IMG/VR virus record: IMGVR_UViG_3300048588_000714
Coordinates: 1-20,594 of that record
Length of the DNA: 20,594 nucleotides
Source: a virus
Strand: one strand, 5' to 3'
The translations under genes were made by a program, and so were the position numbers. The stretch's first letter is position 1, and each line of letters opens with the position of its first letter. Below are positions 121-17,342 of the stretch, piece after piece. The notes beneath the pieces are model-generated. The model saw nothing but the letters and a program-made list of their open reading frames with translations, did not search any database and had not been told where the DNA came from.

Positions 121-140
121 TGGTGCCAAGAGGGGACTCG
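121..140 (-). other. Left attachment core (decayed tRNA-Leu 3' end)
   Basis: On the minus strand this matches the T-arm, acceptor strand and CCA end of the tRNA-Leu at 17258-17278. Fifteen bases are identical without a gap (126-140 against 17264-17278). One G of the acceptor stem is missing, and the next T-loop base (141) differs from the intact tRNA. The changes suggest this copy is no longer under selection as tRNA, so the integration is probably old. Confidence 0.8.
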
Positions 141-190
141 TACAATCGCTGCAAACCTCGCCATTGCTTACTCACAGACGGCGCCATAGC

Positions 191-250
191 AATCTACGCA
201 CGCGCCTACGCACGTAAGCTGCGGTTGCAGGCGGACGCCGACGAACGGCT
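191..250. repeat. Left subterminal repeat with paired CTACGCACG sites
   Basis: CTACGCACG occurs at 194-202 and 206-214, 12 bp apart. The block resembles 17097-17156 at the right end, where CTACGCGCA and CTACGCACG stand at 17100-17108 and 17112-17120, also 12 bp apart. Both blocks end in GCCGACGAACGGC. The two blocks are in direct orientation and each lies just inside an att core. This is the expected layout for integrase or excisionase arm-type sites; the binding itself is inferred. Confidence 0.6.
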
Positions 251-385
251 AGCCTAGGGTTGCGATTCCCGGACCCGTCGAGGTTCGAGTTCTGTCGAGG
301 CAGGCCTAATCCAACGGCATGTCCCCTGCTCTCATCCAGACTGCTGGCGCCTGCGCCTTAGGAGGGGACCAGTCAGGCGGTCTGC
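251..385. other. Element left-end non-coding stretch
   Basis: Between the left arm repeat and the first + strand gene I find no supported gene. A purine-rich AGGAGGGG at 360-367 lies 18 bases before the ATG at 386. That is farther than usual for a ribosome binding site but may belong to that gene. Confidence 0.4.
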
Positions 386-925
386 ATGGATCTCACTTTG
401 GGAGACGGTGAACTCGGATACTGCAGCCTCAACCCAGCCAAGGACTCTCCCGTGTACTGGAAGCCATCTGAATTGACGCTCGTTCCCTTGAGTGCCGTCG
501 AACCTGGATCTCTCTTCGAGTTGCCCGACTTCGTCGATCAATTCCCACTGTTTCTGAGGCTGGCGAATATCGAAGGCAAGTCCGGAGTGATGGCTTTGGG
601 CGGCGAGTCCTCGCTGGAGGTGTTCCCTTGGGATCCACCATCTGACGCCAGGATCGTCTGCGCGCCGGATCGGTTGCTGGTGAAGTTGAATGGGGGGACT
701 GACGTTCCTCAAATGGATGAACCCGGAACCATCACCTTGCACAGAGGCGGAGCCTTTCTCCAATCGAAGGCGGGTCGCCGGCAGGCCCGTGGGGTGAAAA
801 TCTCAACCTCGACTTGGGAACCTGTGCGCGTGAATGATCTCCAAGGCGAGATTAGTTGCTTTGCGAAGTGGCAGTTCGGGCAGTTGGACGGGAGCGGCAC
901 CTTCTTGCCCATCTTTCCGAAGTGA
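386..925 (+). CDS. Hypothetical cargo protein, 179 aa
   Basis: I do not recognise this protein. It is a mixed alpha/beta-type sequence with a hydrophobic core and few repeats, no signal peptide and no membrane segment. Conspicuous parts are an acidic, aromatic N-terminal half (for example ELPDFVDQFPLF) and a basic patch KAGRRQARG near residues 128-136. The + strand frame was chosen over the overlapping minus frame because its composition looks like a folded protein while the minus frame is Arg/Ser rich. It sits at the end of the element far from the integrase and on the strand opposite to the phage genes, which is where accessory cargo is often found. Local GC is low (32 of 60 at 541-600). 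Confidence 0.6.
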   Translation: MDLTLGDGELGYCSLNPAKDSPVYWKPSELTLVPLSAVEPGSLFELPDFVDQFPLFLRLANIEGKSGVMALGGESSLEVFPWDPPSDARIVCAPDRLLVKLNGGTDVPQMDEPGTITLHRGGAFLQSKAGRRQARGVKISTSTWEPVRVNDLQGEISCFAKWQFGQLDGSGTFLPIFPK

Positions 926-1032
926 CCTTGCCGTCTCTTTCAGCCCTCATCGACGCCCTGCGCATCGCAGCCACTGCCGGCGATGGTGAGGCCGCTTGGA
1001 TGCTCCGCATGCTGCGTCAATCGCTGCACTGA
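922..1032 (+). CDS. Small hypothetical protein, 36 aa, coupled to the upstream gene
   Basis: A GTG start overlaps the TGA of the 179-aa gene as GTGA, the same kind of junction used throughout the element. The peptide (LPSLSALIDALRIAATAGDG, then a Met/Leu/Arg-rich end) could form one amphipathic helix pair. The coding support is the coupling and the sensible composition only. Its last bases overlap the 3' end of the convergent gene at 1017-1283. It could be non-coding. Confidence 0.4.
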   Translation: MTLPSLSALIDALRIAATAGDGEAAWMLRMLRQSLH

Positions 1033-1283
1033 GCAGTCGCAGCGCGCTCCATGAGCGTTTCGATCGCCCACATTCCGTAGCCGCTGTAGATGACGTACTC
1101 GAAGTCTGTCTCAGCTGAGACGGGGTGCGCAATCGCCGGCAAGAGGCTGTCGTCGACAGATACGACACCCTTCATTTCCATGTGGCCATACTGGTGTTCG
1201 CACACCATGGACGGCTGCAGGCAGTCAGGCGTGAGCACGTAGGGATAGGAGCGGCTATCGGGCAGGTAGACAGCTAGTCGCAT
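1017..1283 (-). CDS. Hypothetical protein, 88 aa
   Basis: I do not recognise the family. The start at 1283 (MRLAVYLPDSRS) is preferred over an in-frame ATG farther upstream because GAGG stands about 7 bases before it and the upstream extension is Arg-rich and unlikely to be real. The protein is compact, with several Tyr and a C-terminal helix (MWAIETLMERAATAQ). No signal peptide or transmembrane segment is seen. It is convergent with the two + strand cargo genes and is separated from the lipoprotein gene, so it may have its own promoter. Confidence 0.6.
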   Translation of the reverse strand: MRLAVYLPDSRSYPYVLTPDCLQPSMVCEHQYGHMEMKGVVSVDDSLLPAIAHPVSAETDFEYVIYSGYGMWAIETLMERAATAQCSD

Positions 1284-1429
1284 GGCAGCCTCACGTAGTG
1301 ATGTTGGCTGCGCTCGCCCCCTGCATCGGCGCGCTAGCAACCTAACGCGGGCGGGGTGAAATTTTCGCTAAATGACGCTTGGTCATGGTGATCCCAGCCC
1401 GTGCGACGAATGCCCCGCACGCTCGCTGC

Positions 1430-1612
1430 ATGGACGAAGACGACAAGCCCGACGAGTTCACCCTGTATGGGCCGCAGTCGGCGATGCGCGGGAGAGACTC
1501 ACGCACGCCTGAAGAGCGCGCTGAGGCAGAGGCGAAGGAGCGCAAGCGACGACGTGGCGGCAATCGGAACTGGTTCCTGAAAAGCAAAGCACCGCCACCC
1601 GATCAGGGCTAG
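1430..1612 (+). CDS. Possible small charged protein, 60 aa
   Basis: The peptide starts with an acidic stretch (MDEDDKPDEF) and continues into a highly charged Glu/Arg helix ending in Lys-rich residues, so it would be largely disordered or a nucleic-acid-binding tail. No clear ribosome binding site precedes this ATG or the in-frame ATG at 1379. A minus-strand frame covers the same bases but is Arg/Ser-rich and looks like a shadow. This is a weak call. Confidence 0.3.
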   Translation: MDEDDKPDEFTLYGPQSAMRGRDSRTPEERAEAEAKERKRRRGGNRNWFLKSKAPPPDQG

Positions 1613-1699
1613 AGCGTGCTAGTGCTCAGGCGAACCAGTCGATGCTCGTACTTGTCAGCATTCGCGCACGGCAGGCCGTACGTTCCGTTGGTGCCGACG

Positions 1700-2257
1700 C
1701 TAGGGGCGAATGCGCCCGCAGGCGTCGCAGCGCTTGGCCGGATCAGGTTCGTAAGGCTGAGTGCTGCCTCCCGGCGGTGGGGGTGAGGCAGGCAGCGGCG
1801 GGGGAGCGGCCGAACGTTCCTCCCAGATCGGGCCGTTCTCAGGCTGATCCGGCACGTAGATGGCGACACCCTTTCCGGTCTTGCGATAGGTCGCCGACGA
1901 CACACCGAGACCCCACGCCATGCCGCCGCTTGCCCAGGCTTGGCCGCTTCCGACGCTGCCGGTGTACTGATCGCCGATGCCTTGGATCAGAACCCCATTG
2001 GCTCCAACTGCCGCGGCTTCGGCGCGGAGGCGGTCCGCAACCTTGTCGGTTTTCCCTTGATCCGTGATTGCCCAGGAGAAATTGCTCACTGCGCTGAGCA
2101 TGGCGACTTTCTCGTAACGCGCTGGCGGATCCATGTAGAACCGCACCTGTTCGGGTGCGATCGGCGGTCGGCGCGTGCCGACTATCAGGCTGGACGATGC
2201 GCAGCCAACAAGCGAAGCGGACAACACCACGGCGGCGAGCAAGCTGTTCAAGCGCAT
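1700..2257 (-). CDS. Lipoprotein, 185 aa
   Basis: The N-terminus has a type II signal peptide: two basic residues, a hydrophobic stretch and lipobox LVGC with Cys19 as the expected lipidation site. AGGGGG stands 5 bases before the ATG. Residues about 34-135 (for example RFYMDPPARYEKVAML and EAAAVGANGVLIQG) form a domain seen in small bacterial envelope lipoproteins that place a conserved GANG segment after a helix; I cannot name its function. The C-terminus is Pro-rich and ends in CDACGRIRP, a CxxC pair that may bind metal. It lies directly after the tape measure gene, where lambdoid phages carry tail-tip genes, so here it is more likely a lysogenic-conversion gene acting in the host outer membrane. 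Confidence 0.8.
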   Translation of the reverse strand: MRLNSLLAAVVLSASLVGCASSSLIVGTRRPPIAPEQVRFYMDPPARYEKVAMLSAVSNFSWAITDQGKTDKVADRLRAEAAAVGANGVLIQGIGDQYTGSVGSGQAWASGGMAWGLGVSSATYRKTGKGVAIYVPDQPENGPIWEERSAAPPPLPASPPPPGGSTQPYEPDPAKRCDACGRIRP

Positions 2258-2369
2258 AAATCCCCCTGTTGAGATGACCTCTCATCCGCGTAGGCAACCA
2301 TACCAGTCCTGCAGGAACGCCTGACATCGCTCGGGCAATGCGGCCCGCGTGAGCAGGCCTCGCTGTGGA

Positions 2370-5300
2370 TCAGGCAAACCTCGTCGCGTCGCTGAGCTTC
2401 ATGGCGGAATCGGCAGCGCGCTGCGAATCGCTGCGACGGTCCGACATGCGGGGGTTGTGGAAGTGCTGTTCGACGGTGATGGCGCGACCGCGGCCTGCGC
2501 CTGGGCCGGCGCTGTCTTCAGGTCCGCGACCCAGGCGCACCCGGCCGGAGCCGCCGACCATGCCGCCGTTCGCATAGCCGCTGCGGATGGCGCGGCGCAG
2601 CGCGTTGAATCCCGACTCGCCGCCGAGCGCGTTGATCTCCGGCTGCGACAGGACGCCTTCACCCTTGTGGACCATGCCGGCGGGCTGCAATCGGCCACCG
2701 GGGCCGGTGTAGCCACCCGCAGCCCAGCCGCCCATGAAGTCTTCGAATACATCGGCGAACTGCTGGCCGGTCACGCCGTTGGAGCTGGCGACATAGCCGC
2801 CGCCCATTTTGCTCATGCCGCTCCACATGCCGAGGATCGAGGTGAACATGCTCGTCCAGCCGCCGCCGCCCGTGCCGCCCATGGGTGCGGTGCCGCCATT
2901 GGCAACGCCCGCTGCGGCCAGCGATGCTGCTGCGGCCTGCAACGCTGCTGCTGCGCCGTACAGTGGCATTGCGGACGCTGAGAGGGCGCTCGCCGCACTC
3001 TGCATCGAAGCGCCGCTTGAGCCGTCGTCGAGGCCCGGCAGGAACTTCTTCATGAGCTTGGAGATCTGCGACCGAACCGCCATCCGCATGAACTCTGCTG
3101 CGATGCTGTCGAAGTAGCCGCGCCAGTCGGCTTTGCCCTTCGTGAAGAAGTCGGTGAGCAGATCCTCGGTCCCCTGCAGGAAGCTGTTCGTGAGGTTCTT
3201 CGTCTGGCCGGCGATGTCCTCGGCCGCTGCGATGTAGTCCTCGATGCTCGAGCGCATCCCGTTGCGCCAGTCGGACTGCGCCGCGAGCATCTCCTCGAAG
3301 TTCTTGCGGGATTGCGCCATCGCTTCCGACTCTGCGATGACCGTCTTCCCGATGAGTTCCAGGTAGGCGTTCTGTTCCGCGTTCCGGCGTTCGAACTGGT
3401 CCAGCGGGATGGACGCCAGCCGGTTCTGCAGGTCGCCGTCCATCTGCTTGCGCATGTCGCGGAACTGGTCGCTGATCCCGTTCGCGATGCCGTTCCACGC
3501 CGCCGTGTTGCCGCCGTGCCGCAGGGCCTGCATGTCGCGTGCGTGCTTCTTCTGCATCGCCTCCATGTCGTCGGCGATCTGGCGATCGACGGCCAGGCCG
3601 CGGAGCTTCTCCTCCTGCAGGCGCCGCGTCGCGTCGATCTGGTCCTCCAGGACCACGTTCGCCTGGAGGATGGCGCGGATCTCGTCGGCCTTGGACTTGA
3701 TCGTCTTGTCGCGGGTGTCGCGCAGCAGCAGCTCGAACTTCAGCAACTCGCGGCGGGAGCTGTTGAGGGCGTCGCCGGCGGCGATCTCCAACTGGTACTC
3801 CTGCTGGCGAGCCTGCGCAGCCCTGAGGGTGTCCTGGCCAGCGTCGGCATGCGTGCGCGCCGTGGCCTTGGCCGCCTTCTGCTGCGAGTCGTAGGCCTTC
3901 ATCCGGCTGAAGTGCTGCTTCATGAAGGCGTCGAAGGCGTTGTAGTTGGCGCGCTCGTCCGCAGGCAGTGCATTCGGGCCGCCCTTGTCCAGGATGCCCT
4001 TGCCCTGCGTCACCTGGAATGCGGCGTATTCGCCTTTTGTCTTCCGGATCCATTCGATCTGGGACTGCCACACCGAATCGCTGAAGGACCCGAACAGGCT
4101 GCCCATCTGCGCGGTCGCGCTCTGTGCAGCGCCGGCGAGGCCTCGAAGTGCGGCTGCGTGGTTGTCGGCCGCGCTTGCCGCGGTTCCTTGCTTGCCGGTG
4201 AGCGTGTCCAGCTGCGCCTGGTTGTGCTGTAGCTCCCGGGTCAGCGTGCCGACCACACCGGCTTTCTCCAGCAGCCGATCCTTCAGCAGCCGGGCCGCGG
4301 CCTCGTCCGCCAGAAGCTTCGTGTTCGCCGTGGCGAGGGCTGCCGAGTATTCGTCCGCCTTCAGCTTGCCGGTCTGGAACTCCTTCACCAGTGCGCCGGT
4401 CGTGGCCAGGTAGGCGCGCGCTGCGGCCTGCGCCGATTCCGGATAGAGGTCGTATGCCCCGAGGCTGCGATCGAAGCCCTGCGCGAAGAGTTGCTGCACG
4501 CTGCCGGTGATGCTGGCCATGTCGCTTTCGAACTGCTCGGCCTGCGCCTTGATCGTGTTCTGCAGCCCGGCAATCGATGACGCCTGCTGCAAGGCGTTCA
4601 GTTCACGGAACTTCGTGATGGCCTGATCCGCGGAACCGGACCAGTCGACCAGCGCCTGCGAGGCGGCGTTCGTGTTGTCGCGGAATGCGAGCCAGGAGAT
4701 GGCCGTCGACCCCACCATGAAGGCTAGGCCAAGTGGACCGCCGAAGAATCCGAGCGCCGCCTTGCCGGCTAGTGCAAGCCGGCCACTAGCGGCTGCAGCT
4801 CCGTCCGTAGCCGCCTTGTGCTGTTGCAGTGCGCGGCTGTGCGCGTCCGTCGCGACCTTTGCGGCCAGGTCAGCTGCAATGCTGCCTCCGTAGGCCTTTT
4901 GCGCGCGCGAGGCGCTCGCCACCGCATCTTCCATCTCACGCTTCGTCTTGTTGACCAGCGCTGCGGCTGCGGCCTCCGCGCCGACCGCTTGCGCGAGCAT
5001 GGCCGCATGGGAGGCGTTGAGACCCTTGACCCAGCCCGCGGCGCTTTCGCCCAGCTTCACCGCTGCCAGGGAGGCCGCTGCCGGGACGAGGATCGGCAGG
5101 ACGGTGCCCATGCCCTCCAGTGCGACCGTGGCGCCCTTGATCCCGGCGATCGCGGTATCGCTGAAGGCGCCGCCGGCGAGCTCCAGCTTCATCTCCCGCC
5201 ACGCGTTCCCGAGTCGGTTCGATTCGGCCTGCAGGGAGGTCGACGCGGCCTTCCAGTTCACGCCGAGCTCGGAGAAGGCCTGCGTCATCGCGGGCAGGAA

Positions 5301-5972
5301 CGTCTTGACGTCGAGCAGGCCGCCTTGCAGCAACTGGTCGAAGGACTTGCCGGCCAGGTTCGTGCCCTTGACCATTTCCATGACGGCGATCTGGAACCGC
5401 GGGAGCACGCCTGGGATTGCTTCGGCCAGCTGCTGGCGCAGTTCCTCGGCTTGGAATCGGCCCTTGCTGAAGGACTGCGAGAGCGCCGTCATCGCGCGGT
5501 CGACTTTCTCCGGTGCGATCTGCAGCGCGGTCGCCGCTTTGCTCACTTCGAGGAAGAGTCGCTGCTGGTCCTTCATCGCGACACCGTTGGCGGTCGCCGA
5601 TGCCGTCATGCGCTGGAAGCCTTCGGCCGCGGTCTGGTAGTCGAGCCCGAGTTGCTTCGCGGTCTGCGATACGAAGGACAGGGCATCCGCGGAGAGCTTC
5701 GCGGAGCCGGTCGAGGCCTTCATCGCGTTGACCAGCGCCTGCTGCCGCTTCGTCACTTCGAGCAGCGCGCCGCCGGCGGAACTGAGCGCCTGCACCGAGA
5801 TGAATCCGACGGCCGCCTTCTGGAAGTTCGCCATGACCGCGGCGGTCTTCTTCGCTTCCTGCTGAATCAGGCCGAGGTTCTGGTTGGCGACGCGGCCGGC
5901 GTCGATCATCGCCGCGCGGTACTGCGCGGTGTTTGCCCTCAGCAGGACGTCGATCGTTGCGGCGTTGCTCAT
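2370..5972 (-). CDS. Phage tail tape measure protein, 1200 aa
   Basis: The N-terminal 270 residues match the tape-measure N-terminal domain: a MSNAATIDVLLRANTAQYRA start, then helices with SFSKGRFQAEELRQQLAEA and a conserved glycine. The middle is a long Ala/Gln/Lys-rich helical ruler with a hydrophobic stretch near residues 400-430 (LGFFGGPLGLAFMVG). The C-terminal part resembles lambda gpH-type proteins, with DWRGYFDSIAAEFMRM and the motif GGYTGPGG...GMVHKGEGVLS near residues 1080-1105. In lambda-like phages this protein sets tail length and is ejected into the host. AAAGGG lies about 10 bases before the ATG. The gene is full length. No tail tube, chaperone or tip gene is found beside it, which is very unusual. 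Confidence 0.95.
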   Translation of the reverse strand: MSNAATIDVLLRANTAQYRAAMIDAGRVANQNLGLIQQEAKKTAAVMANFQKAAVGFISVQALSSAGGALLEVTKRQQALVNAMKASTGSAKLSADALSFVSQTAKQLGLDYQTAAEGFQRMTASATANGVAMKDQQRLFLEVSKAATALQIAPEKVDRAMTALSQSFSKGRFQAEELRQQLAEAIPGVLPRFQIAVMEMVKGTNLAGKSFDQLLQGGLLDVKTFLPAMTQAFSELGVNWKAASTSLQAESNRLGNAWREMKLELAGGAFSDTAIAGIKGATVALEGMGTVLPILVPAAASLAAVKLGESAAGWVKGLNASHAAMLAQAVGAEAAAAALVNKTKREMEDAVASASRAQKAYGGSIAADLAAKVATDAHSRALQQHKAATDGAAAASGRLALAGKAALGFFGGPLGLAFMVGSTAISWLAFRDNTNAASQALVDWSGSADQAITKFRELNALQQASSIAGLQNTIKAQAEQFESDMASITGSVQQLFAQGFDRSLGAYDLYPESAQAAARAYLATTGALVKEFQTGKLKADEYSAALATANTKLLADEAAARLLKDRLLEKAGVVGTLTRELQHNQAQLDTLTGKQGTAASAADNHAAALRGLAGAAQSATAQMGSLFGSFSDSVWQSQIEWIRKTKGEYAAFQVTQGKGILDKGGPNALPADERANYNAFDAFMKQHFSRMKAYDSQQKAAKATARTHADAGQDTLRAAQARQQEYQLEIAAGDALNSSRRELLKFELLLRDTRDKTIKSKADEIRAILQANVVLEDQIDATRRLQEEKLRGLAVDRQIADDMEAMQKKHARDMQALRHGGNTAAWNGIANGISDQFRDMRKQMDGDLQNRLASIPLDQFERRNAEQNAYLELIGKTVIAESEAMAQSRKNFEEMLAAQSDWRNGMRSSIEDYIAAAEDIAGQTKNLTNSFLQGTEDLLTDFFTKGKADWRGYFDSIAAEFMRMAVRSQISKLMKKFLPGLDDGSSGASMQSAASALSASAMPLYGAAAALQAAAASLAAAGVANGGTAPMGGTGGGGWTSMFTSILGMWSGMSKMGGGYVASSNGVTGQQFADVFEDFMGGWAAGGYTGPGGRLQPAGMVHKGEGVLSQPEINALGGESGFNALRRAIRSGYANGGMVGGSGRVRLGRGPEDSAGPGAGRGRAITVEQHFHNPRMSDRRSDSQRAADSAMKLSDATRFA

Positions 5973-6246
5973 CGTCGGAAACCCTTTGTGGTCAAGGCCT
6001 GGAGCGGCCTAGGAGCGCTCCAGACGAAAATCCGTTTTTTGCCCATTTATTGCCGTTGGCGGGTGGATTGCGTCCTGGTGGTGCTGGGGTTTGTGAGCAG
6101 AATTCCGACTTCGAGCCGAAATTCCGGGGCTAGAAAAAACCTCTGCGTGGGAGCGGGGTCGGTGTCCGGTCTGAGGGGTTCGAGTTCGCGGGTACCCCCC
6201 CCCTGTTCAGTTTCACCTTCACATGTCTGAAGGCCTTGGTAGTCAG
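5973..6246. promoter_or_regulatory. Intergenic region upstream of the tape measure gene
   Basis: This 274-base gap is long for the element. It contains an 8-bp inverted repeat with a 9-base loop (5999-6006 with 6016-6023), six T at about 6035-6040, and a run of nine C at 6195-6203. GTCGGTGTCCG at 6158-6168 also occurs at 10054-10064 upstream of the small-terminase-like gene, and in both places a C-run begins 37-38 bases later. It could be a promoter leader or a packaging-type site; no clear -10/-35 pair was identified. Confidence 0.4.
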
Positions 6247-6465
6247 TCAGTGCAGCCCCTCGCCCCAGCCTTCGACCATCGCCGTAGCCACTGGCCCGAA
6301 GCCGACGAAGGCGCTGAAGCCGTCGCTCCAAGTCATGTAGAGGCCGTACTCGTCTCCGTTCCACCCCTGCCGCTTGAGTGCATCCGCATCCAGCGAACGC
6401 CCGAGGCGTCGAAGGTTCGCGTTCAAGTCGTCCACCGGTAGGTGTGTCTCGCCATTCGCGTTCAT
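6247..6465 (-). CDS. Hypothetical protein, 72 aa
   Basis: I do not recognise this small acidic protein. AGGAGG lies about 10 bases before the ATG at 6465, which is strong support for translation. The sequence has an N-terminal helix (DDLNANLRRLGRSLDADAL) and a Gly/Trp/Phe-rich C-terminal part (SDGFSAFVGFGPVATAMVEG). It lies between the capsid gene and the tape measure gene, where a phage would have connectors, tail tube and chaperones, but it is far too short to replace them and shows no frameshift site. It may be a small assembly or regulatory protein. Confidence 0.7.
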   Translation of the reverse strand: MNANGETHLPVDDLNANLRRLGRSLDADALKRQGWNGDEYGLYMTWSDGFSAFVGFGPVATAMVEGWGEGLH

Positions 6466-6497
6466 GCCTTCGTTGCCTCCTGTCCAATGTGGGTAGA

Positions 6498-6521
6498 GGG
6501 GCGGCCCCGAAGAGCCGCCCC
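6498..6521 (-). terminator. GC-rich hairpin after the capsid gene
   Basis: GGGGCGGC (6498-6505) and GCCGCCCC (6514-6521) form a perfect 8-bp stem with an 8-base loop, 16 bases past the capsid stop codon. No T-run follows on the minus strand, so it is either a weak terminator or an mRNA-stabilising 3' hairpin that separates capsid from downstream expression. Confidence 0.45.
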
Positions 6522-6537
6522 GTTACTGCCCTGCTGC

Positions 6538-7941
6538 TTACGGCGACGTGTCGGAGCAGCCGCTCCAGTTCACCCGACCCCATGCCACCGAAGCCGCGCG
6601 GCGACGCTGCCAGTTCATGAAGCGCTCCACCAGGAACGCGACCGAATTGGTCTGCCACAGGCTCACCAGCTGAGCCGCGGTCGGGGTGACGCTGCTGCTG
6701 TTCGGCGCGTCGTCCATCAGCAGCGAAGCCTGGTCGGACATCGAGACCTGGATGCCGCCCTCGTCGCCGAGGAAGATCTCGTCGCCGCGGACCAGCGCAA
6801 CCACCGAACCGTTGCTGTCGGTGTCGGCGTAGGCGGTGATGAATACCGGCAGGCCGAAGAACGTACCGCCGCTGAAGCTGATACCCGGGAAGGCTTGCTG
6901 GCCCAGGGCGTTCTCCATCAGCGACAGCGCGATCGCGATGCGTTCCGGCATGATCCAGAAGGCACCGTCGAGCGACAGCAGATTGTCGGCGAACTGGTTC
7001 ATGAACACCTCGACATCGCAGCGCACCGCACTGGAGTCGGTGCCACCGCTCAGGGTCAACGGCGTCACGCCATTGAGGATCGAGGCCGGCGACTCGTCGG
7101 TGACCGCCGCGGCATCCGGATCGATGAACGTGGTGTCCAGCGTCGCGCCAACCGCACGGGCCAGTTCGTCACGCAGCAACGCATCCGCGGCCGGCGTGGC
7201 CCGCATCAGCGTCTCCTTCGTGGCCGCTGCGATCGCCGCCACCTTCAGCGGGACCAGCTTGGTGCGGGTGTACTGCCACTTGGTCAGCGGCTTCGCGGCG
7301 CCTTCCTTGACCCACTTCGCAGTGCCGCCCGTGCTCTGGATCAGGACCGGGGTATCGAACGGCAGGTTGCGGAGGCGATCCGAGATCCGGCCCAACAGCG
7401 TGCGCGGGCGCAAGAACTCGACGAAGTCGGCGAATGCCACGCCACCATCGGTGATCAGGTTGCCGGCCCAGGTCGCGCTGCCGGTGTTGGCAGCCGGTAC
7501 TGCTGTCCGGGTCAGGTGGCCGATCGTCTGGTCGTCGTCTGGGTAGATCGTCTTCGCGATCTGCGCGGGGTTCTGGTGATGGATGTGGGACAGGGCCACG
7601 CACCGTGCCACCCGGGCGAAGCCGATGCCCGCATCGAGCGTCTGCGTGTTTCGTGCTTGGGCGCCCGACGGGGCGATACCGGCACGGACCTGCATGCCCT
7701 TGTGGCTCTGGTCATCCACCGGGCGGGCGGTGGCCATGTCGGCTTGCGTCGCCTTGCAGCGTGCGAGGTCGCCCTGCAGACGATCGATGTCGCGGCCGAT
7801 GGTGTCGAACTCCACCCGCTCCGCGTCGGAGAGGCTGCGTTCCTGCAACTGGGCGCGTTCGAGGATCGACTTGCGCTTGGTCATCGCGTCGTCGATGGTC
7901 GCTTCGAGCGCGGAGATCTGATCAGCAATCTGGTACTTCAT
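6538..7941 (-). CDS. HK97-fold phage major capsid protein, 467 aa
   Basis: The N-terminal 70 residues are a charged coiled coil typical of the delta (scaffolding) domain of HK97-type capsid proteins. The rest resembles the phage_capsid family: AVPAANTGSATWAGNLI near 147, FLRPRTLLGRI, a conserved Lys/Trp region at WVKEGAAKPLTKW (E-loop side), LRDELARAVGATLDTTFI and a C-terminal P-domain with FFGLPVFITAYAD and GDEIFLGDEGGI. Length is normal for a precursor that is cleaved after assembly. AAGG lies about 10 bases before the ATG, which overlaps the stop of the 53-aa gene as ATGA. The usual upstream partners, portal and prohead protease, are absent, so maturation would need a protease from elsewhere. 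Confidence 0.93.
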   Translation of the reverse strand: MKYQIADQISALEATIDDAMTKRKSILERAQLQERSLSDAERVEFDTIGRDIDRLQGDLARCKATQADMATARPVDDQSHKGMQVRAGIAPSGAQARNTQTLDAGIGFARVARCVALSHIHHQNPAQIAKTIYPDDDQTIGHLTRTAVPAANTGSATWAGNLITDGGVAFADFVEFLRPRTLLGRISDRLRNLPFDTPVLIQSTGGTAKWVKEGAAKPLTKWQYTRTKLVPLKVAAIAAATKETLMRATPAADALLRDELARAVGATLDTTFIDPDAAAVTDESPASILNGVTPLTLSGGTDSSAVRCDVEVFMNQFADNLLSLDGAFWIMPERIAIALSLMENALGQQAFPGISFSGGTFFGLPVFITAYADTDSNGSVVALVRGDEIFLGDEGGIQVSMSDQASLLMDDAPNSSSVTPTAAQLVSLWQTNSVAFLVERFMNWQRRRAASVAWGRVNWSGCSDTSP

Positions 7942-8099
7942 GGCGTCATTCCTTGTTGGTCGTGAGCGCCTCGCGTCGCCGCGGTGCAGTCGGCTATCGA
8001 CCTGACAGCCGGTTGCGGGAGAGATTTCCCTGCTTGCAAGGGATCTGCGCCCAAGCTCGGATTGACCAGGGTTGCGGTGTCTCTGTCTCCTCCACTCAT
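7938..8099 (-). CDS. Small hypothetical protein, 53 aa, before the capsid gene
   Basis: This short frame begins with an ATG that overlaps the preceding stop as ATGA and ends in a TGA that overlaps the capsid start as ATGA. Such coupling on both sides is good evidence that it is translated. The peptide (MSGGDRDTATLVNPSLGADP and onward) is polar, has no membrane segment and looks largely unstructured. It occupies the position where HK97-type phages have a prohead protease or scaffold, but it is far too short for a protease and I see no catalytic motif. It might serve mainly to couple translation, or as a small scaffold or decoration protein. Confidence 0.6.
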   Translation of the reverse strand: MSGGDRDTATLVNPSLGADPLQAGKSLPQPAVRSIADCTAATRGAHDQQGMTP

Positions 8100-8431
8100 T
8101 GAAGCCGCACGTCGTCGTAGAACTGCTTGCAGGTTTCTGACCTGCCGTCCTTCAGCACGTAGGTGACAGTCACCCAGTTTTGATAGGGCTTGAAATTGAT
8201 CTCGTTGCGAGCGATCTCGTCGGCCGAGGTGAGTTCGAGCGCGGCCAGCGCTGTTCGGGTTGCCTTCCCGACTGCGTCCAGGAGCGCTGCATCCCGCGCC
8301 GCCTTGTTCACTCGAACCAGCGTGCCGTTCCGGATGACGCACGCCTCATCCGGTGCGCTGGTGATGATCAGTGCGATCTCTTGGGGAGTCAGTGGCTCCA
8401 GCTGCTCGCATATCGATTCCCAGGCCGTCAT
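8096..8431 (-). CDS. Hypothetical protein, 111 aa
   Basis: I do not recognise the family. The start at 8431 (MTAWESICEQLEPLTPQEI) overlaps the previous stop as ATGA, and the gene ends in an ATGA overlap with the next. The N-terminal half is helical. The C-terminal half (NFKPYQNWVTVTYVLKDG, then a Lys-Gln-Phe-Tyr end) looks like beta strands. It may be a structural accessory protein because of its place in the capsid operon, but there is no motif to confirm this. Confidence 0.75.
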   Translation of the reverse strand: MTAWESICEQLEPLTPQEIALIITSAPDEACVIRNGTLVRVNKAARDAALLDAVGKATRTALAALELTSADEIARNEINFKPYQNWVTVTYVLKDGRSETCKQFYDDVRLQ

Positions 8432-9132
8432 TCCTGGATCCCCGCAATCATCAGCGCCCACTTGTGGCTCGCCGTGTTGGGCCGCTCGCCGACCTTCGTG
8501 TCCTGCACGCAGTTCCATAGGGCTTCCTTGAATGCGACGACATCACCCGCCTTGTAGGTTGCCGGCGCCTGGTATTTGCCGAGGAAGCGGAAGCCGCGTG
8601 TCTCGATCGCATCCACGCGGCCAGCGATGTTCTCGAACTCCTTGAGCAGCTCGGCGTCGAGTGCGCTCTGGGTTTCCAGCGCCTTGATCCGATTGAACGC
8701 GTGCATCAGCGCTTTGCTGAGCGTGTCTTCGACATCGACAATTCGCTGCGCGCAGGCGAGCAGGAGCTTTCGTTGCGTCGCCGTGGGGCCCTTGGACGCC
8801 GCTGTGTGTGCTGGAGTAGGCGCAGGCTCGCAAGAGAGGGCAGGCGCTGGTAGATCGGGGTCACGGAGCGTGGCGACGGCATGGCCGCCCTTGGCTCGCA
8901 GGTGCCATGTTCCATCGTTGTCGAGAAAGCTGCTCAGCAGGTCAACTCGCTCCGCTTGCTCTGGGGAAAGCGTGGCGACGGCACGATCGAACTTTGCGTA
9001 GTAGACCGCGCGCTCCGCGTCGGCACGCTCCATCGGATCCATTGCATTTGACCTCTGCACGGCTTCCAGGCGCAGCTGTGCCTCCAGCCGAAGTCGGCTT
9101 GCGGCGCTGTGGTCGATTGGCTCAACGGTCAT
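8428..9132 (-). CDS. Protein with C-terminal carbohydrate-binding-like module, 234 aa
   Basis: Residues about 183-228 carry the pattern of CBM5/12-like modules found in phage tail proteins and chitinases: FLGKYQAPATYKAGDVVAFK, then ALWNCVQDT, and a final HKWALM. The N-terminal half is a charged helix-rich region (DPMERADAERAVYYAKFDR), followed by a Pro/Ala linker and a further coiled-coil stretch (LLACAQRIVDVEDTLSKALM to IAGRVDAIETR). The start at 9132 is preferred because AAGG stands about 8 bases upstream; an ATG at 9183, overlapping the previous stop, is also possible and would add 17 residues. It may be a virion surface or fibre-like protein that binds cell-surface glycans; this is inferred. 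Confidence 0.7.
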   Translation of the reverse strand: MTVEPIDHSAASRLRLEAQLRLEAVQRSNAMDPMERADAERAVYYAKFDRAVATLSPEQAERVDLLSSFLDNDGTWHLRAKGGHAVATLRDPDLPAPALSCEPAPTPAHTAASKGPTATQRKLLLACAQRIVDVEDTLSKALMHAFNRIKALETQSALDAELLKEFENIAGRVDAIETRGFRFLGKYQAPATYKAGDVVAFKEALWNCVQDTKVGERPNTASHKWALMIAGIQE

Positions 9133-9182: not shown

Positions 9183-9500
9183 TCAAGGGGTAGCAGAGGG
9201 CACAAGGGCGCCGGTGATCGGCATGCCAACATCGCTTTCGCGCTCAATCCAAGCGGCCAAGTCGAAGATTCGAAGGCTTCGCTTGTGTCCCTGGCCGCCG
9301 ATTCGGTAGACGCGGATGCCGGACTCAGGCAGGCGCTTTCGGAAGCCCGATGGCTTCATGCCCAGGATCTTCGCGGCGTCGTCAACGCCGATCCGCAAGT
9401 CGTCGCTGATCCACATGTGGGGCTTGGATTGCGCCGCACTGAGCAGCAGCGCCGCGGTCCGCTCGGTCCGCTCGTGGAGATCCGCTGCAGGCTCAGCCAT
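9183..9500 (-). CDS. HTH DNA-binding protein, 105 aa
   Basis: Residues 36-87 (RIGVDDAAKILGMKPSGFRKRL, then VYRIGGQGHKRSLRIFDL) have the helix-turn-helix plus wing pattern of small AlpA or excisionase-like regulators. In this fold the second helix reads DNA. The start at 9500 overlaps the preceding gene by eight bases. Its place inside the terminase-capsid operon suggests a packaging or late-gene regulator rather than an excision factor, since another excisionase-like gene lies at 12968-13171. In several phages a DNA-binding protein beside the terminase helps recognise the packaging site, so that role is possible too. Confidence 0.65.
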   Translation of the reverse strand: MAEPAADLHERTERTAALLLSAAQSKPHMWISDDLRIGVDDAAKILGMKPSGFRKRLPESGIRVYRIGGQGHKRSLRIFDLAAWIERESDVGMPITGALVPSATP

Positions 9501-9672
9501 GCCGGCTTCGCCATGCGCGCGATCGGCATGCAGCGTCGCAATAGCAGCGGGTTCGCCCCGTCTGGCGCGTCGGTGCCAACGCGGTCCCGCATGCCTTGCA
9601 GCGATGCTGCGCCAGCTTCGCGCACTCGTCGCGAACCAGTACGCGGCCGGTTGGGAATTCGAGGACCGTCAT
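9493..9672 (-). CDS. Small zinc-ribbon-like protein, 59 aa
   Basis: The protein has a CKACG knuckle near residues 25-29 and a second cluster CYCDAAC, followed by RSRAWRSRHG. This C-x2-C plus C-x-C-x3-C arrangement with a basic tail is typical of very small phage and plasmid zinc-finger proteins of unknown role. The start at 9672 overlaps the preceding stop as ATGA, which decides it over upstream in-frame starts. The basic tail suggests nucleic-acid binding. Confidence 0.7.
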   Translation of the reverse strand: MTVLEFPTGRVLVRDECAKLAQHRCKACGTALAPTRQTGRTRCYCDAACRSRAWRSRHG

Positions 9673-9998
9673 GCGTTCCCGCCTCGCTGCGGGGTCGCTC
9701 CCATTTTCGAAAGGATCGAACCCAGGACTGCCGCCGCCGAGTCGCCGAACTGGCCCGAGTCCATCCGCGCGGACAGCACGCAGGCCATGCGAAGCAGCAC
9801 GCGGTGCGACGAGTGCAGCCAAGGCAGCTCCGCTGCGTACTCGCGCCAGTACCGCACCTCGGCAGGCTTCATGCCGGCGTAGGGTTCGCCGATCGGGCGC
9901 GTTTTCGTCGGGCCTCGGCGGTTCCTGAAACGGGCGCCGTGCTTGATCGTGGTTCCCGACACTTCAGCCTTGGCGCGGGGGGTTCTATTGCGTGCCAT
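9669..9998 (-). CDS. Probable phage small terminase-like protein, 109 aa
   Basis: The C-terminal half (KPAEVRYWREYAAELPWLHS, then HRVLLRMACVLSARM and SILSKMGATPQRGG) follows the pattern of phage small terminase subunits: a Trp-containing helix, an L-x2-S-x-R/D segment, a long helix and a terminal K-x-G-x-x-P motif. The N-terminus is basic and could contact DNA. Small terminases recognise the packaging site and hand DNA to the large terminase. It is short for the family, and no large terminase follows it; instead the operon runs through small genes to the capsid gene. Satellites such as the Staphylococcus pathogenicity islands likewise carry only a small terminase. The family call is by pattern and is not certain. 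Confidence 0.5.
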   Translation of the reverse strand: MARNRTPRAKAEVSGTTIKHGARFRNRRGPTKTRPIGEPYAGMKPAEVRYWREYAAELPWLHSSHRVLLRMACVLSARMDSGQFGDSAAAVLGSILSKMGATPQRGGNA

Positions 9999-10148: not shown

Positions 10149-11015
10149 TCACAGTTGAAACCCGCTGCCGTGGATCGTCTGCTCCCGCCAGCGACCCTGC
10201 TCGTGGGTCCGGACGATGGTCGTCTCGGCCGGCTCCTCAAAGGCATCCGGCCCAGCAATGCTCACCTGGCCGCGCAGCGAGTCGCCACTCAAGACCAGCG
10301 TCGGGCCCGTCTCCTTCAGCCTATCGGCGACGCGTTCCCCGACGAGTGCAGCGAAGTTCGCCGTCCCTGCGTTCGTGGCGACCAGCGTCGGCAACTGGTT
10401 CCGATATCGCCAGTCGATCAACTGGAACAATTCGGCGTGGTCATAGTCGCTTGCGGCTTTCACGCCGAGTTCGTCCAAGGCCAACACTGGCGCGTTGCGG
10501 AGACGGTCGATTGCGTTGCGTCGAGGATCGCCACGGCCGCCGCTGAAGGCTGCCTTCGTCTCGGCCAGGACGTCGGGCCAGCTGGCGTAAATCGGGCCGC
10601 TCATCGTGCGGCAGGCCTCGTTGACGATCGCGCAGAGGCCGACCGTCTTGCCGAGTCCTGGCGGCCCGGACAACAGCAGGCCAGCGCCTTCTTCGTACCG
10701 CGTCTGCAGGTTGGCGACGTAGGCCTCCACTGCACGTCGGAGTGACTTGGCGCTGGCAGTCACCGGCTGAATGCTCGCCGGCGTCGCGGACCGGTAGCGC
10801 TCCGGCACGCCGGAACTCTTCAGCCACCAGCCGTAGCGCGAATGCAGTTCGCGATGGCTGTACTCGGCAGCCTGCGCAGCCTTCTGGCAGGTTGGGCAAC
10901 TCCAGGTCATCCGCTTCGGATCGGGAACGCCGTCGCCATAGGTGAATTCGTGCGTCGGGCAGGTCCACACGCGGGCGCTGTCGGCCTGCTCCTGGGTTTG
11001 CGGGTTTGTCGTCAT
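10149..11015 (-). CDS. DnaC-like helicase loader ATPase, 288 aa
   Basis: This is an AAA+ ATPase of the DnaC/IstB type. Walker A is GPPGLGKT (residues 117-124), Walker B is VLALDE (177-182), sensor I is ATN (213-215) and a GERVADRL segment (227-234) supplies the likely arginine finger. A C-x2-H (19-22) and C-x2-C (40-43) pair near the N-terminus probably binds zinc. Such proteins load the host DnaB helicase at a phage origin. The start at 11015 is set by an ATGA overlap with the initiator gene; an upstream in-frame start would add an Arg-rich shadow. IstB-type transposition partners share the fold, but no istA transposase is present and the pairing with an initiator supports replication. Confidence 0.9.
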   Translation of the reverse strand: MTTNPQTQEQADSARVWTCPTHEFTYGDGVPDPKRMTWSCPTCQKAAQAAEYSHRELHSRYGWWLKSSGVPERYRSATPASIQPVTASAKSLRRAVEAYVANLQTRYEEGAGLLLSGPPGLGKTVGLCAIVNEACRTMSGPIYASWPDVLAETKAAFSGGRGDPRRNAIDRLRNAPVLALDELGVKAASDYDHAELFQLIDWRYRNQLPTLVATNAGTANFAALVGERVADRLKETGPTLVLSGDSLRGQVSIAGPDAFEEPAETTIVRTHEQGRWREQTIHGSGFQL

Positions 11016-11902
11016 GCAGCTGCTCCCATGCCGAAGCGCGCGAGCTCGCGCTCGTTCGCTGCGGAAATTTCTTCGTCGGTTCGGGGGTCGCGCTCGATCG
11101 TGCCGACTGACTTGCCGGCGGCCTTTGTCGAATCGCGTGGGTAGAAGCTCGACCATCCGGACTCGATGCCGAGCTCGATCAACTTCGCCGGGTCGTGTCC
11201 TTCAGCCCGAAGAGCTTCAAGTTTCTGGATGGCGAGATCCTGGGCACGACTGCTGAACTTCTTGCCGCGATGATCCTTCCATGACTGCCAAGCGTCAGCA
11301 GGTAGCCACGTAGGCAGGACCACATCGGGTTTCTTCTTCGCGCGTGCACGCTCTTGTTCTTTCTGGTTGCTCTTTCTAGGTGCTCTTTCTAGGTCATTGG
11401 ACTCTGTGACGTGACCTCGAAGCTCAAATGTCCGGAACTCCGACACCGAATGTCCAGAACTCGCGGGCTGAGTACTGGACACAGTGTCCTTAACTTCACG
11501 CTCAGTTCTGGACTCTGTGACTGCACCTTGCGGCAACAACAGTTGGTATTTGTAGCCCCTCCACTTACGCCCCTTGAACTTGATTGCCTGCCTACTGAAC
11601 CAGCGGCCTTCAGTCGCAGTGAGCGCACGCCAGCAGGTTTTCTCGCTCTGGCTCGAAAGCTGCGCCAACGCCTCGATTCCGGGGTAGCAGTCACGCCCGT
11701 TCGAGTTTGCGAACTCGGCCAGGGTGAGCAGGGTCAGTTTCTCGCTTGCCGACTCGTCGCTGTTGAGCACGGCCGATCGCCACTTCGCGATGAATGCACG
11801 CTTGCGAGGTGCACCCGCTGCGCTATCATCGTCCGGAGCCTCGCCGCCAAGCTTGCTCACGGAGCCCGCGAACTGCGGGCTTCGTCGTGTCTGGGGACTC
11901 AT
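11012..11902 (-). CDS. Phage replication initiator (O-like) with winged helix, 296 aa
   Basis: Residues about 34-122 form a helix-turn-helix of the kind found in phage replication proteins: FIAKWRSAVLNSD, LTLLTLAEFANSNGRDCYPG, then IEALAQLSSQSEKTCWRAL and a wing ending in YKYQLLLPQG. A low-complexity linker (about 123-170) is encoded by the iteron-containing DNA, as in lambda O. The C-terminal domain (LPTWLPADAWQSWKDHRGKK to IESGWSSFYP) resembles the helicase-contact end of phage replisome organisers. The start at 11902 overlaps the previous stop as ATGA. Together with the DnaC-like gene it forms an O/P-type replication module. Confidence 0.85.
   Translation of the reverse strand: MSPQTRRSPQFAGSVSKLGGEAPDDDSAAGAPRKRAFIAKWRSAVLNSDESASEKLTLLTLAEFANSNGRDCYPGIEALAQLSSQSEKTCWRALTATEGRWFSRQAIKFKGRKWRGYKYQLLLPQGAVTESRTEREVKDTVSSTQPASSGHSVSEFRTFELRGHVTESNDLERAPRKSNQKEQERARAKKKPDVVLPTWLPADAWQSWKDHRGKKFSSRAQDLAIQKLEALRAEGHDPAKLIELGIESGWSSFYPRDSTKAAGKSVGTIERDPRTDEEISAANERELARFGMGAAA
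11368..11393. repeat. 13-bp tandem repeat beside the iterons
   Basis: TGCTCTTTCTAGG occurs twice in direct tandem with no spacer (11368-11380 and 11381-11393), in a pyrimidine-rich, comparatively AT-rich stretch. It borders the iteron cluster on the downstream side of the initiator gene. Its place is that of the AT-rich unwinding element beside the iterons in lambda ori, and 13-mers recall oriC unwinding elements. Function is inferred. Confidence 0.55.
11395..11523. repeat. Inverted iteron cluster, candidate replication origin
   Basis: A motif close to GAGTTCTGGACAYW appears at 11470-11483 (GAGTACTGGACACA) and 11503-11516 (CAGTTCTGGACTCT), and in the opposite orientation at 11427-11440 (AATGTCCGGAACTC) and 11449-11462 (AATGTCCAGAACTC), the last two spaced 22 bp. 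TGGACTCTGTGAC is repeated exactly at 11398-11410 and 11509-11521. All lie inside the initiator gene, as lambda O-binding sites lie inside gene O. This is a strong candidate for the site bound by the initiator. Confidence 0.65.
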
Positions 11903-12120
11903 CCGCGGCCGGCCTCCAGCAGCGATTGACGCATGCGGAGAATTGCCTGGCGCGCGCCGTCGAGGTTTCTGGCGACCGTTTCGCAAAGGTCCGGCGTCGG
12001 ATCCTCGGACAGCCGCACCAGTTGCGCCTGGAGCGAATCGGCAAGGTCCTGCAATTGCGCACGTGGCAGTGGCGGGGCTGGCCGATACAGGTCGCGGAGT
12101 AGGTCGACCTGGCTGGTCAC
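11899..12120 (-). CDS. Small helical protein, 73 aa
   Basis: The frame begins with GTG in a GTGA overlap with the preceding stop and ends in an ATGA overlap with the initiator gene. The protein is two or three helices (SQVDLLRDLYRPAPPLP, LQDLADSLQAQLVRLSED, and a C-terminal Arg-rich helix). No known family is recognised. Its place just before the replication initiator suggests an early function, for example modulation of replication. Confidence 0.7.
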   Translation of the reverse strand: MTSQVDLLRDLYRPAPPLPRAQLQDLADSLQAQLVRLSEDPTPDLCETVARNLDGARQAILRMRQSLLEAGRG

Positions 12121-12356
12121 GATGCCACCTCGCGCAGCGCGCGCTCGATCGCGTCTGCCTCCTCGATATGGCGCGCGCGTTGGCCTTGGAGATAGACCTC
12201 GAAGTTCTGCAGGGTTGCGATCGCATCCGGCAAACCCGCCAAGGCGTTGTTCGCGACGACAGTGGCTTCGCGGTGCTGCTGTGCAAGTCGCCGCAGTTCT
12301 GCTCGATTGCTCGGGCTCTTTGCCAGCACCTGGGCGGCGTCAAGGACGATGCTCAC
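12117..12356 (-). CDS. Small coiled-coil-like protein, 79 aa
   Basis: GTG start in a GTGA overlap and a GTGA overlap at its end. The sequence is nearly all helix (RAELRRLAQQHREATVVANN, then LQNFEVYLQGQRARHIEEAD) with a heptad-like spacing of Leu and Ala. The family is not recognised. It belongs to a run of five tiny helical proteins of similar length in one operon, which might act together or with the replication proteins. Confidence 0.7.
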   Translation of the reverse strand: MSIVLDAAQVLAKSPSNRAELRRLAQQHREATVVANNALAGLPDAIATLQNFEVYLQGQRARHIEEADAIERALREVAS

Positions 12357-12786: not shown

Positions 12787-12971
12787 TTCGCACCGCCACG
12801 CATTGCGTCCAGCTTCCGGCGTTGCGCGCCGAGCTCGCGTCGCAAGTCTGCGAGGGGCTTCAGACTGTTGCCCTCCTTGGCGTCGCTCACCTCTTCTTCG
12901 AGTTGCTCGACCAGGAGTTCCTGGTGCTCGATCGCCTGCAGCTCGGGGGCTGCGTTGAGGGCGCGGTTCAC
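12783..12971 (-). CDS. Small coiled-coil protein, 62 aa
   Basis: The GTG at 12971 overlaps the stop of the excisionase-like gene as GTGA. The sequence is a strongly charged helix (IEHQELLVEQLEEEVSDAKE, then LADLRRELGAQRRKLDAM) with heptad spacing, so it probably forms a coiled-coil dimer. It may partner one of the neighbouring small proteins. No family is recognised. Confidence 0.7.
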   Translation of the reverse strand: MNRALNAAPELQAIEHQELLVEQLEEEVSDAKEGNSLKPLADLRRELGAQRRKLDAMRGGAK

Positions 12972-13171
12972 TTCGCACCAGCCGGGACAGCCATGCGCGA
13001 ATCGATGACCTTGCGGAGTTCAGCCTCCGGGATCAGGGTCTTCCGTCCGATCTTGAACGGGCGAACCTCACCCGCCTTGATCAGCTCGTACATGGTCGTG
13101 CGGCTCACGCTGAGCCGTTTGATCGCCTCGTTCACCGTGTGAGCGAGCGGTGTACTTGTGCCGCTTTCCAT
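12968..13171 (-). CDS. Excisionase-like HTH protein, 67 aa
   Basis: Residues 13-60 match the excisionase/HTH_17 pattern: VNEAIKRLSVSRTTMYELIK, then GEVRPFKIGRKTLIPEAELR and VI. Such proteins bind DNA at att sites or early promoters. GGAG stands about 10 bases before the ATG. As first gene of a long operon of replication genes it may act both as recombination directionality factor and as regulator, as AlpA does in P4 and related islands. It faces the palindrome-rich region at 13172-13280. Substrate DNA is inferred. Confidence 0.8.
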   Translation of the reverse strand: MESGTSTPLAHTVNEAIKRLSVSRTTMYELIKAGEVRPFKIGRKTLIPEAELRKVIDSRMAVPAGAK

Positions 13172-15858: not shown

Positions 15859-17109
15859 TTAGCCGGATGCTTCGCGCTTGATCGGAACCACCTTGCTGGC
15901 CGGATCCTTGCGCAGGTTGTCGAGGTAGTCCGCCCAGGTCTGCATGACCTCGCGGCGTTGCTCATCGAACGTAGTGCGGTCGTAGGCCTTCTGGACGTCG
16001 CCCTTCTTCGCGTGCGCCAGCTGCGCCTCCAGCACGTCGATATCCACGTTCAGACGCTCGCGCGCCATCGTGCGCAGCGTGCCGCGGAATCCATGGGTCG
16101 CATGCTTGCCTTGGAAGCCCATGTCCCGGAGCGCCTTGCTCAACGCATCGCGGCTCAGGTGTGGCGTTTTCTGCTTCGCCGGCGACGGGAACACGTAAAC
16201 GCCGGGCTTATCGCCTTGGATCGCCTCCAGCAGTGTCACAGCCTGCGTGGGCAGCGGGACGATGTGGTCGTGCCGGGTCTTCATGAGCATGCCCGGGATA
16301 TGCCACTCAGCGGCCTCCAGGTCGATATGTGCCCACTGCGCGGAAGCGACCACCGACGGCCGTAGCGCGGTCAGGGAAGCCATGAGCAGGGCTGTCCGGG
16401 TCGTCGGCTGCGAATAGGCGTCGATGGCCAGCAGCAGCGGCCTGAGCTCTGCCGGCTTCGTGATGGCCGGGATGTGGCCGGCCTCGTACTTCACCAGGGT
16501 GCCTCGTAGGGATAGCAGCTTGCCGTCCTCGCGCAGCCCCTCTTGGATCGCGTAATTCACCATCCCGCCCAGGTACTGGCGCGCCTTCACGGCCAGGTTC
16601 GGCGCGCGCTCGGCGATCTTGCCCAGCACCGGGGTCACGTCCTTTGTCGTGAGCGTGTCGATCGAATGGCGTCGCAGGGCCGGCACCAGGTCGCCCTCGG
16701 TGACCAGCTTCGCTTTCCGGAAGGTTTCGAGCCCTACCCTCTTCCGCTTGTATTCGAGCCACTCCGCCGCGAACGCCGGGAAGCCGGCGCGCTCCCGCCG
16801 CACCTTCGACTCTGAGGACTCGCGCCTCGCTGCCATCGGATCCTGTCCATGCGCGAGGGTCCGGCGCGCTTCCCTGAGACGCTCCCTAGCGTCCTGCAGC
16901 GTGATCTCGTCCCAGCGCCCCAGGGCCATCATTCGGGCCTTGCCGGCGAATCGGTAGCGATAGCGCCAGAGCTTCGAGCCCGTCGGCGTGACCTCGATGC
17001 AGAGGCCGTCCCGGTCCGCGACCCGGTAAAGCTCGGCCTTGGGCTTCAATGCCTTGATCGCGACTTCAGTCAGCACGAGGTTCGGGTCCCAGCCAGAATC
17101 TACGCGCAT
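15859..17109 (-). CDS. Tyrosine integrase, 416 aa
   Basis: This is a tyrosine recombinase of the P4-like class with an N-terminal DUF4102-type arm-binding domain (TEVAIKALKPKAELYRVADR, then TGSKLWRYRYRFAGK). Counted from the ATG at 17109, the catalytic set is Arg250 (TALRPSV), Lys277, His339 and Arg342 (HGFR), His366 (LAHAKKGD) and Tyr376 as nucleophile. It inserts the element into the tRNA-Leu 3' end. A GTG at 17076 would give MLTEVAIKALKPK, closer to the family's usual N-terminus, so the start is open; neither has a strong ribosome binding site. Arm-like sites at 17100-17120 cover the ATG, so the integrase may control its own expression. Confidence 0.92.
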   Translation of the reverse strand: MRVDSGWDPNLVLTEVAIKALKPKAELYRVADRDGLCIEVTPTGSKLWRYRYRFAGKARMMALGRWDEITLQDARERLREARRTLAHGQDPMAARRESSESKVRRERAGFPAFAAEWLEYKRKRVGLETFRKAKLVTEGDLVPALRRHSIDTLTTKDVTPVLGKIAERAPNLAVKARQYLGGMVNYAIQEGLREDGKLLSLRGTLVKYEAGHIPAITKPAELRPLLLAIDAYSQPTTRTALLMASLTALRPSVVASAQWAHIDLEAAEWHIPGMLMKTRHDHIVPLPTQAVTLLEAIQGDKPGVYVFPSPAKQKTPHLSRDALSKALRDMGFQGKHATHGFRGTLRTMARERLNVDIDVLEAQLAHAKKGDVQKAYDRTTFDEQRREVMQTWADYLDNLRKDPASKVVPIKREASG

Positions 17110-17156
17110 ATCTACGCACGATTGTGTCCGGCTGCAAGCGGATGCCGACGAACGGC
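17097..17156. repeat. Right subterminal repeat with paired CTACGCACG-type sites
   Basis: CTACGCGCA (17100-17108) and CTACGCACG (17112-17120) lie 12 bp apart, followed by GCGGATGCCGACGAACGGC. The same order and spacing are found at 191-250 near the left end. The sites overlap the probable integrase start codon. They are candidate arm-type binding sites. Confidence 0.6.
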
Positions 17157-17218
17157 GGCGAACCACGACGGGAAACGGGAAGCGTGTAGGAGTGCGGCTC
17201 TCAGGGTGCTGCAGGCAC

Positions 17219-17243
17219 AAAAAACCCCGCCGTAGCGGGGTTT
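17219..17243 (-). terminator. Rho-independent terminator after tRNA-Leu
   Basis: On the minus strand a 9-bp GC-rich stem with a 4-base loop is followed by six T. It lies 15 bases beyond the CCA end of the tRNA. Since integration replaces the tRNA 3' side, this terminator was probably supplied by the element, matching the displaced host copy at 83-107. Confidence 0.85.
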
Positions 17244-17257
17244 CATGCATTGCTTAG

Positions 17258-17342
17258 TGGTGCCCAAGAGGGGACTCGAACCCCTACGACCTAAATCGCT
17301 ACCACCTCAAGGTAGTGCGTCTACCAATTCCGCCACCTGGGC
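17258..17342 (-). tRNA. tRNA-Leu (anticodon GAG)
   Basis: The minus strand folds as an 85-base class II tRNA: acceptor GCCCAGG with CTTGGGC, anticodon loop TTGAGGT between CTACC and GGTAG giving anticodon GAG, an extended variable arm, T-arm AGGGG-TTCGAGT-CCCCT, and an encoded CCA. It is the integration site of the element, which restores an intact 3' end. Confidence 0.96.

Follow-up and report, generated by a model that had tools for sequence, protein, structure and literature searches.

The element in the window (the whole stretch of DNA analysed, a virus record of 20,594 bases) is probably a phage satellite that would swap the capsid protein and the tape measure protein (TMP) of its helper for its own and thereby give chimeric virions. 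It spans ~17.1 kb (126-17263), is integrated at a tRNA-Leu gene, and carries an integrase, an AlpA-type regulator, and replication genes together with a morphogenetic set of small terminase subunit (TerS), major capsid protein (MCP), and TMP. Ten further integrated elements in Lysobacteraceae have a TMP without a detectable tail tube or tip gene, which suggests that the eleven may build mixed particles by loading their own TMP into the tail of a helper phage. A broader reading, which we hold tentatively, is that the recurrent morphogenetic core of Lysobacteraceae satellites may be the two proteins that set virion size, MCP and TMP, recruited repeatedly from different siphophages, with portal, connectors, tube, and tip usually those of the helper; on this view the helper would build the virion, and the satellite would determine its dimensions and provide its entry factor. 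What appears new is the recurrent reduction to MCP and TMP outside Vibrio, no such arrangement having turned up in searches of open-licence PMC papers.

The window element has the features of a satellite (integrase, tRNA att repeats, AlpA-type regulator, replication gene, and incomplete structural set; Table 1), and the full head and tail modules of a complete temperate phage were absent in tblastn searches with reference proteins. Its att core is short (15 exact bases, 17/18 overall), so the window could hold an old copy. Three copies of the nine-base arm-type motif CTACGCACG lie in the window, two adjoining the left att and one the right. The DNA to the right of the tRNA, with secG-, tpiA-, and glmM-like translations, we take to be chromosomal. 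Leftwards from the integrase, the recognised genes encode the AlpA-type regulator, an O-like replication protein, DnaC, TerS, and a helix-turn-helix (HTH) protein, followed by two unknown proteins, the MCP, a 72-aa protein, the TMP, and a lipoprotein. A tRNA-like inverted repeat at 6168 was rejected as an inner att site because the sequence does not run on as a tRNA end. Between the TMP and the distal att lies a possible cargo ORF (386-925, plus strand, 179 aa) without a PHROG match; a putative exclusion or defence role may be assigned to it and to the lipoprotein gene (1700-2257).

Table 1 Features of the window, with positions counted from its first base
Feature	Position	Strand	Remarks
tRNA-Leu (gag), integration site	17258..17342	-	
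att, proximal copy, within tRNA-Leu	17264..17281		
Tyrosine integrase	15859..17250	-	phrog_1 4.7e-53; 38% to integrase of satellite phiAH14b
AlpA-type excisionase/regulator	12968..13171	-	phrog_66 2.5e-9; present in 6/11 elements
Frame containing an O-like replication initiation protein, true start internal	11012..12343	-	phrog_678 7.6e-19
73-aa backbone protein	11899..12120	-	8/11 TMP elements, 0/35 phage loci
DnaC-like helicase loader	10149..11015	-	phrog_50 1.8e-40
TerS	9669..9998	-	42-60% to genes immediately before the large terminase gene (TerL) in phages L007, L012, L038
HTH protein	9183..9500	-	also in L033 and L087
Protein upstream of MCP	8428..9132	-	52% identity to L033 homologue
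111-aa protein	8096..8431	-	function unknown; no family above noise
HK97-type MCP, 467 aa	6538..7941	-	PF05065; phrog_617 5.4e-73
72-aa protein between MCP and TMP	6247..6465	-	53% identity to L033; no phage-locus match
TMP, 1200 aa, intact	2370..5972	-	PF09718, PF20155; phrog_339 5.5e-64
Lipoprotein-like gene 3' of TMP	1700..2257	-	phrog_27267 2.2e-11
Arm-type repeats CTACGCACG	192..214	+	starts 194 and 206; third window copy at 17112
att, distal copy, displaced tRNA-Leu 3' end	126..143		17/18 bases match proximal copy

The original prediction of a complete TMP of 1200 residues was borne out: the ORF (2370-5972, minus strand) starts with ATG and is intact, and its product matches PF09718 (3e-19) and PF20155 (1.5e-17), both past the curated cut-off, and phrog_339 (5.5e-64, residues 1-1032 aligned to positions 3-999 of 1123 in the profile). 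Base composition predicts ~27.5 stops in this frame, in which the terminal one alone is observed, and GC by codon position (0.65/0.49/0.86) is like that of the live genes of the window. The tail tube, chaperone, and tip genes are indeed missing, as claimed: tblastn with reference proteins gave no match in the element for tube, terminator, chaperone, connector, tip, portal, TerL, or protease, and the same functions were not found in PHROG scans of its main genes. In the positive control for tblastn, eight of nine prophage loci scored with the tube reference, and the ninth with terminator and portal. The sole small gene on the upstream side of the TMP (6247-6465) matched neither a PHROG nor the single chaperone reference, a comparison that a diverged chaperone could escape. 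To call this a missing tail module is correct for the tail but incomplete, because head genes are equally few: TerS and MCP are kept, whereas large terminase, portal, protease, and connector were not found. The selective keeping of the MCP (6538-7941) and TerS (9669-9998) alongside the TMP had been overlooked, and the tail of ~180 nm derived from the TMP holds as arithmetic (1200 × 1.5 Å = 180 nm) but does not show that a tail exists.

Peptide-pattern scans of viral contigs and genome contigs returned no relatives of the window TMP, and none of 149 genomes matched it at 1e-20. Its best match among complete phages is the TMP of SOVA965 (1015 aa), with 31% identity over residues 288-702, which is the sound part, since an end-to-end alignment at 24% arises only with the composition correction off. 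Pattern scans with DnaC, TerS, and the 8428 protein found no relatives; that with the MCP did. The window MCP is 60-62% identical to the MCPs of phages L003-L006, whose contigs carry protease and portal. Among the nine loci from the MCP scan, L012 has portal and tube, as does the L011 genome in a wider stretch (L036, L037), and L010 and L013 have a portal, with no tube match within the stretch examined; the remaining five, compared with the window genes alone, all have the MCP, and two of them TerS also. The 8428..9132 protein, with a weak CBM5/12-like C-terminus, occupies the position of the protease in phages, and our guess would be a scaffold or decoration role. AlphaFold models of this protein (pLDDT 53) and of the 6247 protein (pLDDT 59) were too weak to use.

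We searched with the MCP in 395 genomes of the family to which a Luteimonas saliphila genome belongs (Lysobacteraceae according to the lineage in its record), and matches were found in seven, the contexts of six of which were examined. Five carry protease and portal, and the sixth, in genome G345, shows the arrangement closest to that of the window: a 9.7-kb element (L033) integrated in tRNA-Pro between perfect att repeats of 49 bp, with homologues of the HTH protein (53%), the 8428 protein (52-54%), the MCP (56%), and the 72-aa protein (53-57%), the same order of MCP, small gene, and TMP, and no other tail genes. Its TMP (745 aa) differs from that of the window, and shares mainly the first 39 residues with the resident prophage of G345.

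The L033 TMP, used as query in 38 genomes of one genus, gave matches in six, and the five other loci were examined. One of these (L048) is phage-like, one (L050) has tail genes, and two (L051 and L052) are tail-less, with integrase and TMP. The fifth, L049, was rejected as a head-less tail element and excluded from the eleven, as PHROGs show TerL, portal, and head genes; within 2994-17989 it holds integrase, primase/helicase, a chaperone-like gene, TMP, TerL, portal, and a head morphogenesis gene, tube and tip not being found. It is cf-PICI-like, brings a TMP of its own, and may be an intermediate form. A search with phrog_2854 in 198 family genomes returned 31 TMP places in 27 genomes, and the surroundings of all 31 were examined. 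At eight of them (L033, L083, L084, L086, L087, L088, L097, and L109) the TMP is accompanied by an integrase or head gene and by neither tube nor tip; the other 23, classified by gene-length pattern and reference matches, are longer phage gene runs or fragments. These eight, the window, L051, and L052 make up the eleven elements.

Seven of them (L033, L051, L052, L083, L084, L088, and L109; sizes 6.3-15.8 kb) have att repeats of 43-50 bp, each of those in L084 and L088 being two exact runs separated by one base; repeat searches of the L087 locus found none, and L086 and L097 extend to contig ends. Integrases pair by site (L051/L083, 64%, tRNA-Val; L052/L109, 71%, tRNA-Met), and the structural genes differ. 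An MCP precedes the TMP in the window, L033, L084, L086, L087, and L097, with TerS intervening in L097. The MCP of L051 is a 123-aa fragment, and in L052, L088, and L109 no MCP was recognised, so either some decay has occurred or the MCP is optional. L083 has a 330-aa protein with a weak MCP match, a portal, and in addition a tail assembly protein; with this exception, the TMP is the sole recognised tail gene of these compact att-bounded elements, several of which are <10 kb. In L088 and L052 the att-bounded element runs ~7 kb past the TMP, and the extra genes look like cargo. Directly after the TMP of L097 (7942-8583) and of L049 (12858-13487) is a gene of ~210 aa matching phrog_13702, whose terminase large subunit label is doubtful because of the size and place of the gene.

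Most element TMPs align over much of their length with TMPs of complete prophages, and these come from different lineages. Identity to the L030 TMP is 52% (L083), 43% (L051), and 38% (L084); to that of L089, 41% (L052) and 39% (L097); to that of L091, 40% over residues 1-1124 (L087); and to that of L048, 38% (L109) and 34% (L033). The TMPs of L088 and L086 have partial matches to phage TMPs, not over much of their length. Phage types with a matching TMP, whose absence would have spoken against a helper, are thus present in the same bacterial family, the nearest phage TMPs marking candidate helper types rather than proven helpers. In an MCP tree of 25 rows, six element MCPs require at least four label changes (the starred branches force four); the window MCP sits among phage MCPs, apart from that of L033, and L087 is on a very long branch. 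This fits repeated recruitment of MCPs into the group.

To compare the nonstructural genes, we built profiles from them and surveyed the 11 element loci and 35 phage loci, the latter including L049 and covering mostly structural regions, so that phage early regions are under-tested for backbone genes. The 73-aa backbone protein is present in eight elements, four of which are seeds and four new (best E from 5e-14 to 5.5e-7), and was found in none of the 35 phage loci (mostly structural regions) and none of 50,697 phage records. The AlpA profile matched six elements, the HTH-protein profile three strongly (all seeds) and two weakly, and the replication-protein profile three (all seeds), each with 0/35 phage loci. 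Two other backbone profiles match phage-side loci (gene 14569: L049 and L092; gene 12353: L049, weakly).

As a control we searched the same 198 genomes for this tail lineage's tube protein, and all six matches were within ~2 kb of a TMP. The difference between lone TMP (8/31) and lone tube (0/6) is not significant alone in this small sample (P = 0.20), and the significance in a favourable subset (8/14 vs. 0/6, P = 0.02) comes from a subset picked after the fact; the comparison is further limited by a tube profile that is narrower than the one for TMP.

If the window element is such a satellite, its TerS would steer packaging towards satellite DNA during the development of a helper siphophage in the cell, and its MCP would form or reshape the head. 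The satellite TMP would be loaded with the chaperone, tube, and tip proteins of the helper into a chimeric tail, would set the length of that tail, and would, in place of the helper TMP, exit with the DNA on entry. Candidate gains from an own TMP are head-tail specificity, escape from TMP-targeted exclusion, and length. In the pairs with long alignments, the element TMP differs from its nearest phage counterpart by anything between a deficit of 108 residues and an excess of 54, so resetting of tail length, the aim originally proposed, is not a consistent one. That neither direction prevails speaks for specificity, and not length, as the main gain. Elements with TMPs of several phage lineages offer a natural experiment on why a satellite should have its own TMP when the whole tail is stolen, and their small size permits deletion gene by gene.

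Helper hijacking by a lone TMP remains the part of the original prediction that fits best, because the same arrangement is found in other elements with integrations of their own, and matching phage TMPs exist; its novelty does not stand. According to PMC12987554, PLEs of Vibrio cholerae place a satellite TMP in virions from which the helper TMP is excluded, tails are ~10 nm shorter, and deletion of tmp cuts transduction; the authors call PLEs the first satellites known with chimeric tails, leave the benefit open, and remark on putative tmp genes in some cf-PICIs. In view of these reports, hijacking by the window element would be of a kind already described. PLE11, PLE1, and PLE4 share with the window a satellite-encoded TMP (by function class), but PLEs pair it with a chaperone, and PLE11 also with a baseplate hub protein, neither of which was found in the window, and PLEs use helper capsid proteins, whereas the window element encodes an MCP (PMC12987554). 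The cf-PICIs are, like the window element, integrated and encode MCP and TerS, and their tails come from the helper; they differ in encoding protease, portal, connectors, and TerL as well (PMC10690885), the window having MCP and TerS only. The staphylococcal pathogenicity island SaPIbov5 encodes Ccm, a homologue of the helper capsid protein, which redirects helper capsids (PMC8569155) and in this resembles the window MCP; Ccm affects the shape of the capsid, and the abstract of PMC8569155 does not mention a TMP.

The sparse gene set might also have arisen by loss. The window element could be a reduced relative of cf-PICIs that formerly possessed all head genes together with a TMP and later shed portal, protease, and terminase. 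In favour are L049, with TerL, portal, head morphogenesis gene, and a TMP with a chaperone-like gene, L083, with portal, weak MCP, and TMP, and the tmp genes on record for cf-PICIs (PMC12987554). We nevertheless consider this unlikely, because the six element MCPs belong to separate phage lineages, needing four or more label changes, which leaves no single inherited head set, and because the backbone protein common to eight elements is missing from L049. Decay of a siphophage prophage, in which most head and tail genes were lost and the TMP, as the longest gene, was left by chance, appears quite unlikely, even though SOVA965 and other phages likewise have TerS, MCP, and TMP in this order, the att core of the window is short, and the L051 MCP is truncated. 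Chance survival sits poorly with a pattern seen eleven times, in elements that occupy several tRNA sites and often have long att repeats, with backbone genes common to the elements and absent from the examined phage loci, with the same small genes kept around MCP and TMP in the window and L033, the two most alike, and with lone tube genes at 0/6.

The satellite TMP and MCP could instead serve mainly to poison helper assembly or exclude the helper, and not as parts of satellite virions. Ccm of SaPIbov5 does redirect helper capsids (PMC8569155), and the TMP is a known assembly target, that of the PLE protein Rta (PMC12987554), but a poison need not keep homology over much of the TMP at near phage size, and we regard such a role as very improbable.

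A further known satellite for comparison is phiAH14b of Pseudomonas, packaged in particles made of the proteins of a presumed helper and carrying AlpA, primase, and a stray tail assembly gene (PMC4936722). Like the window element, it is ~17 kb in size and has an AlpA-type gene, a lipoprotein gene, an integrase (38% identical), and an isolated tail gene, in this case for tail assembly; unlike the window element, phiAH14b has no annotated MCP or TMP. AH14b_p21 and the lipoprotein of the window show no similarity, and phiAH14b is matched by 0/9 backbone profiles. The tail assembly protein I of L083 (7753-8349) is 50% identical to AH14b_p20 of phiAH14b, and represents a second kind of isolated satellite tail gene.
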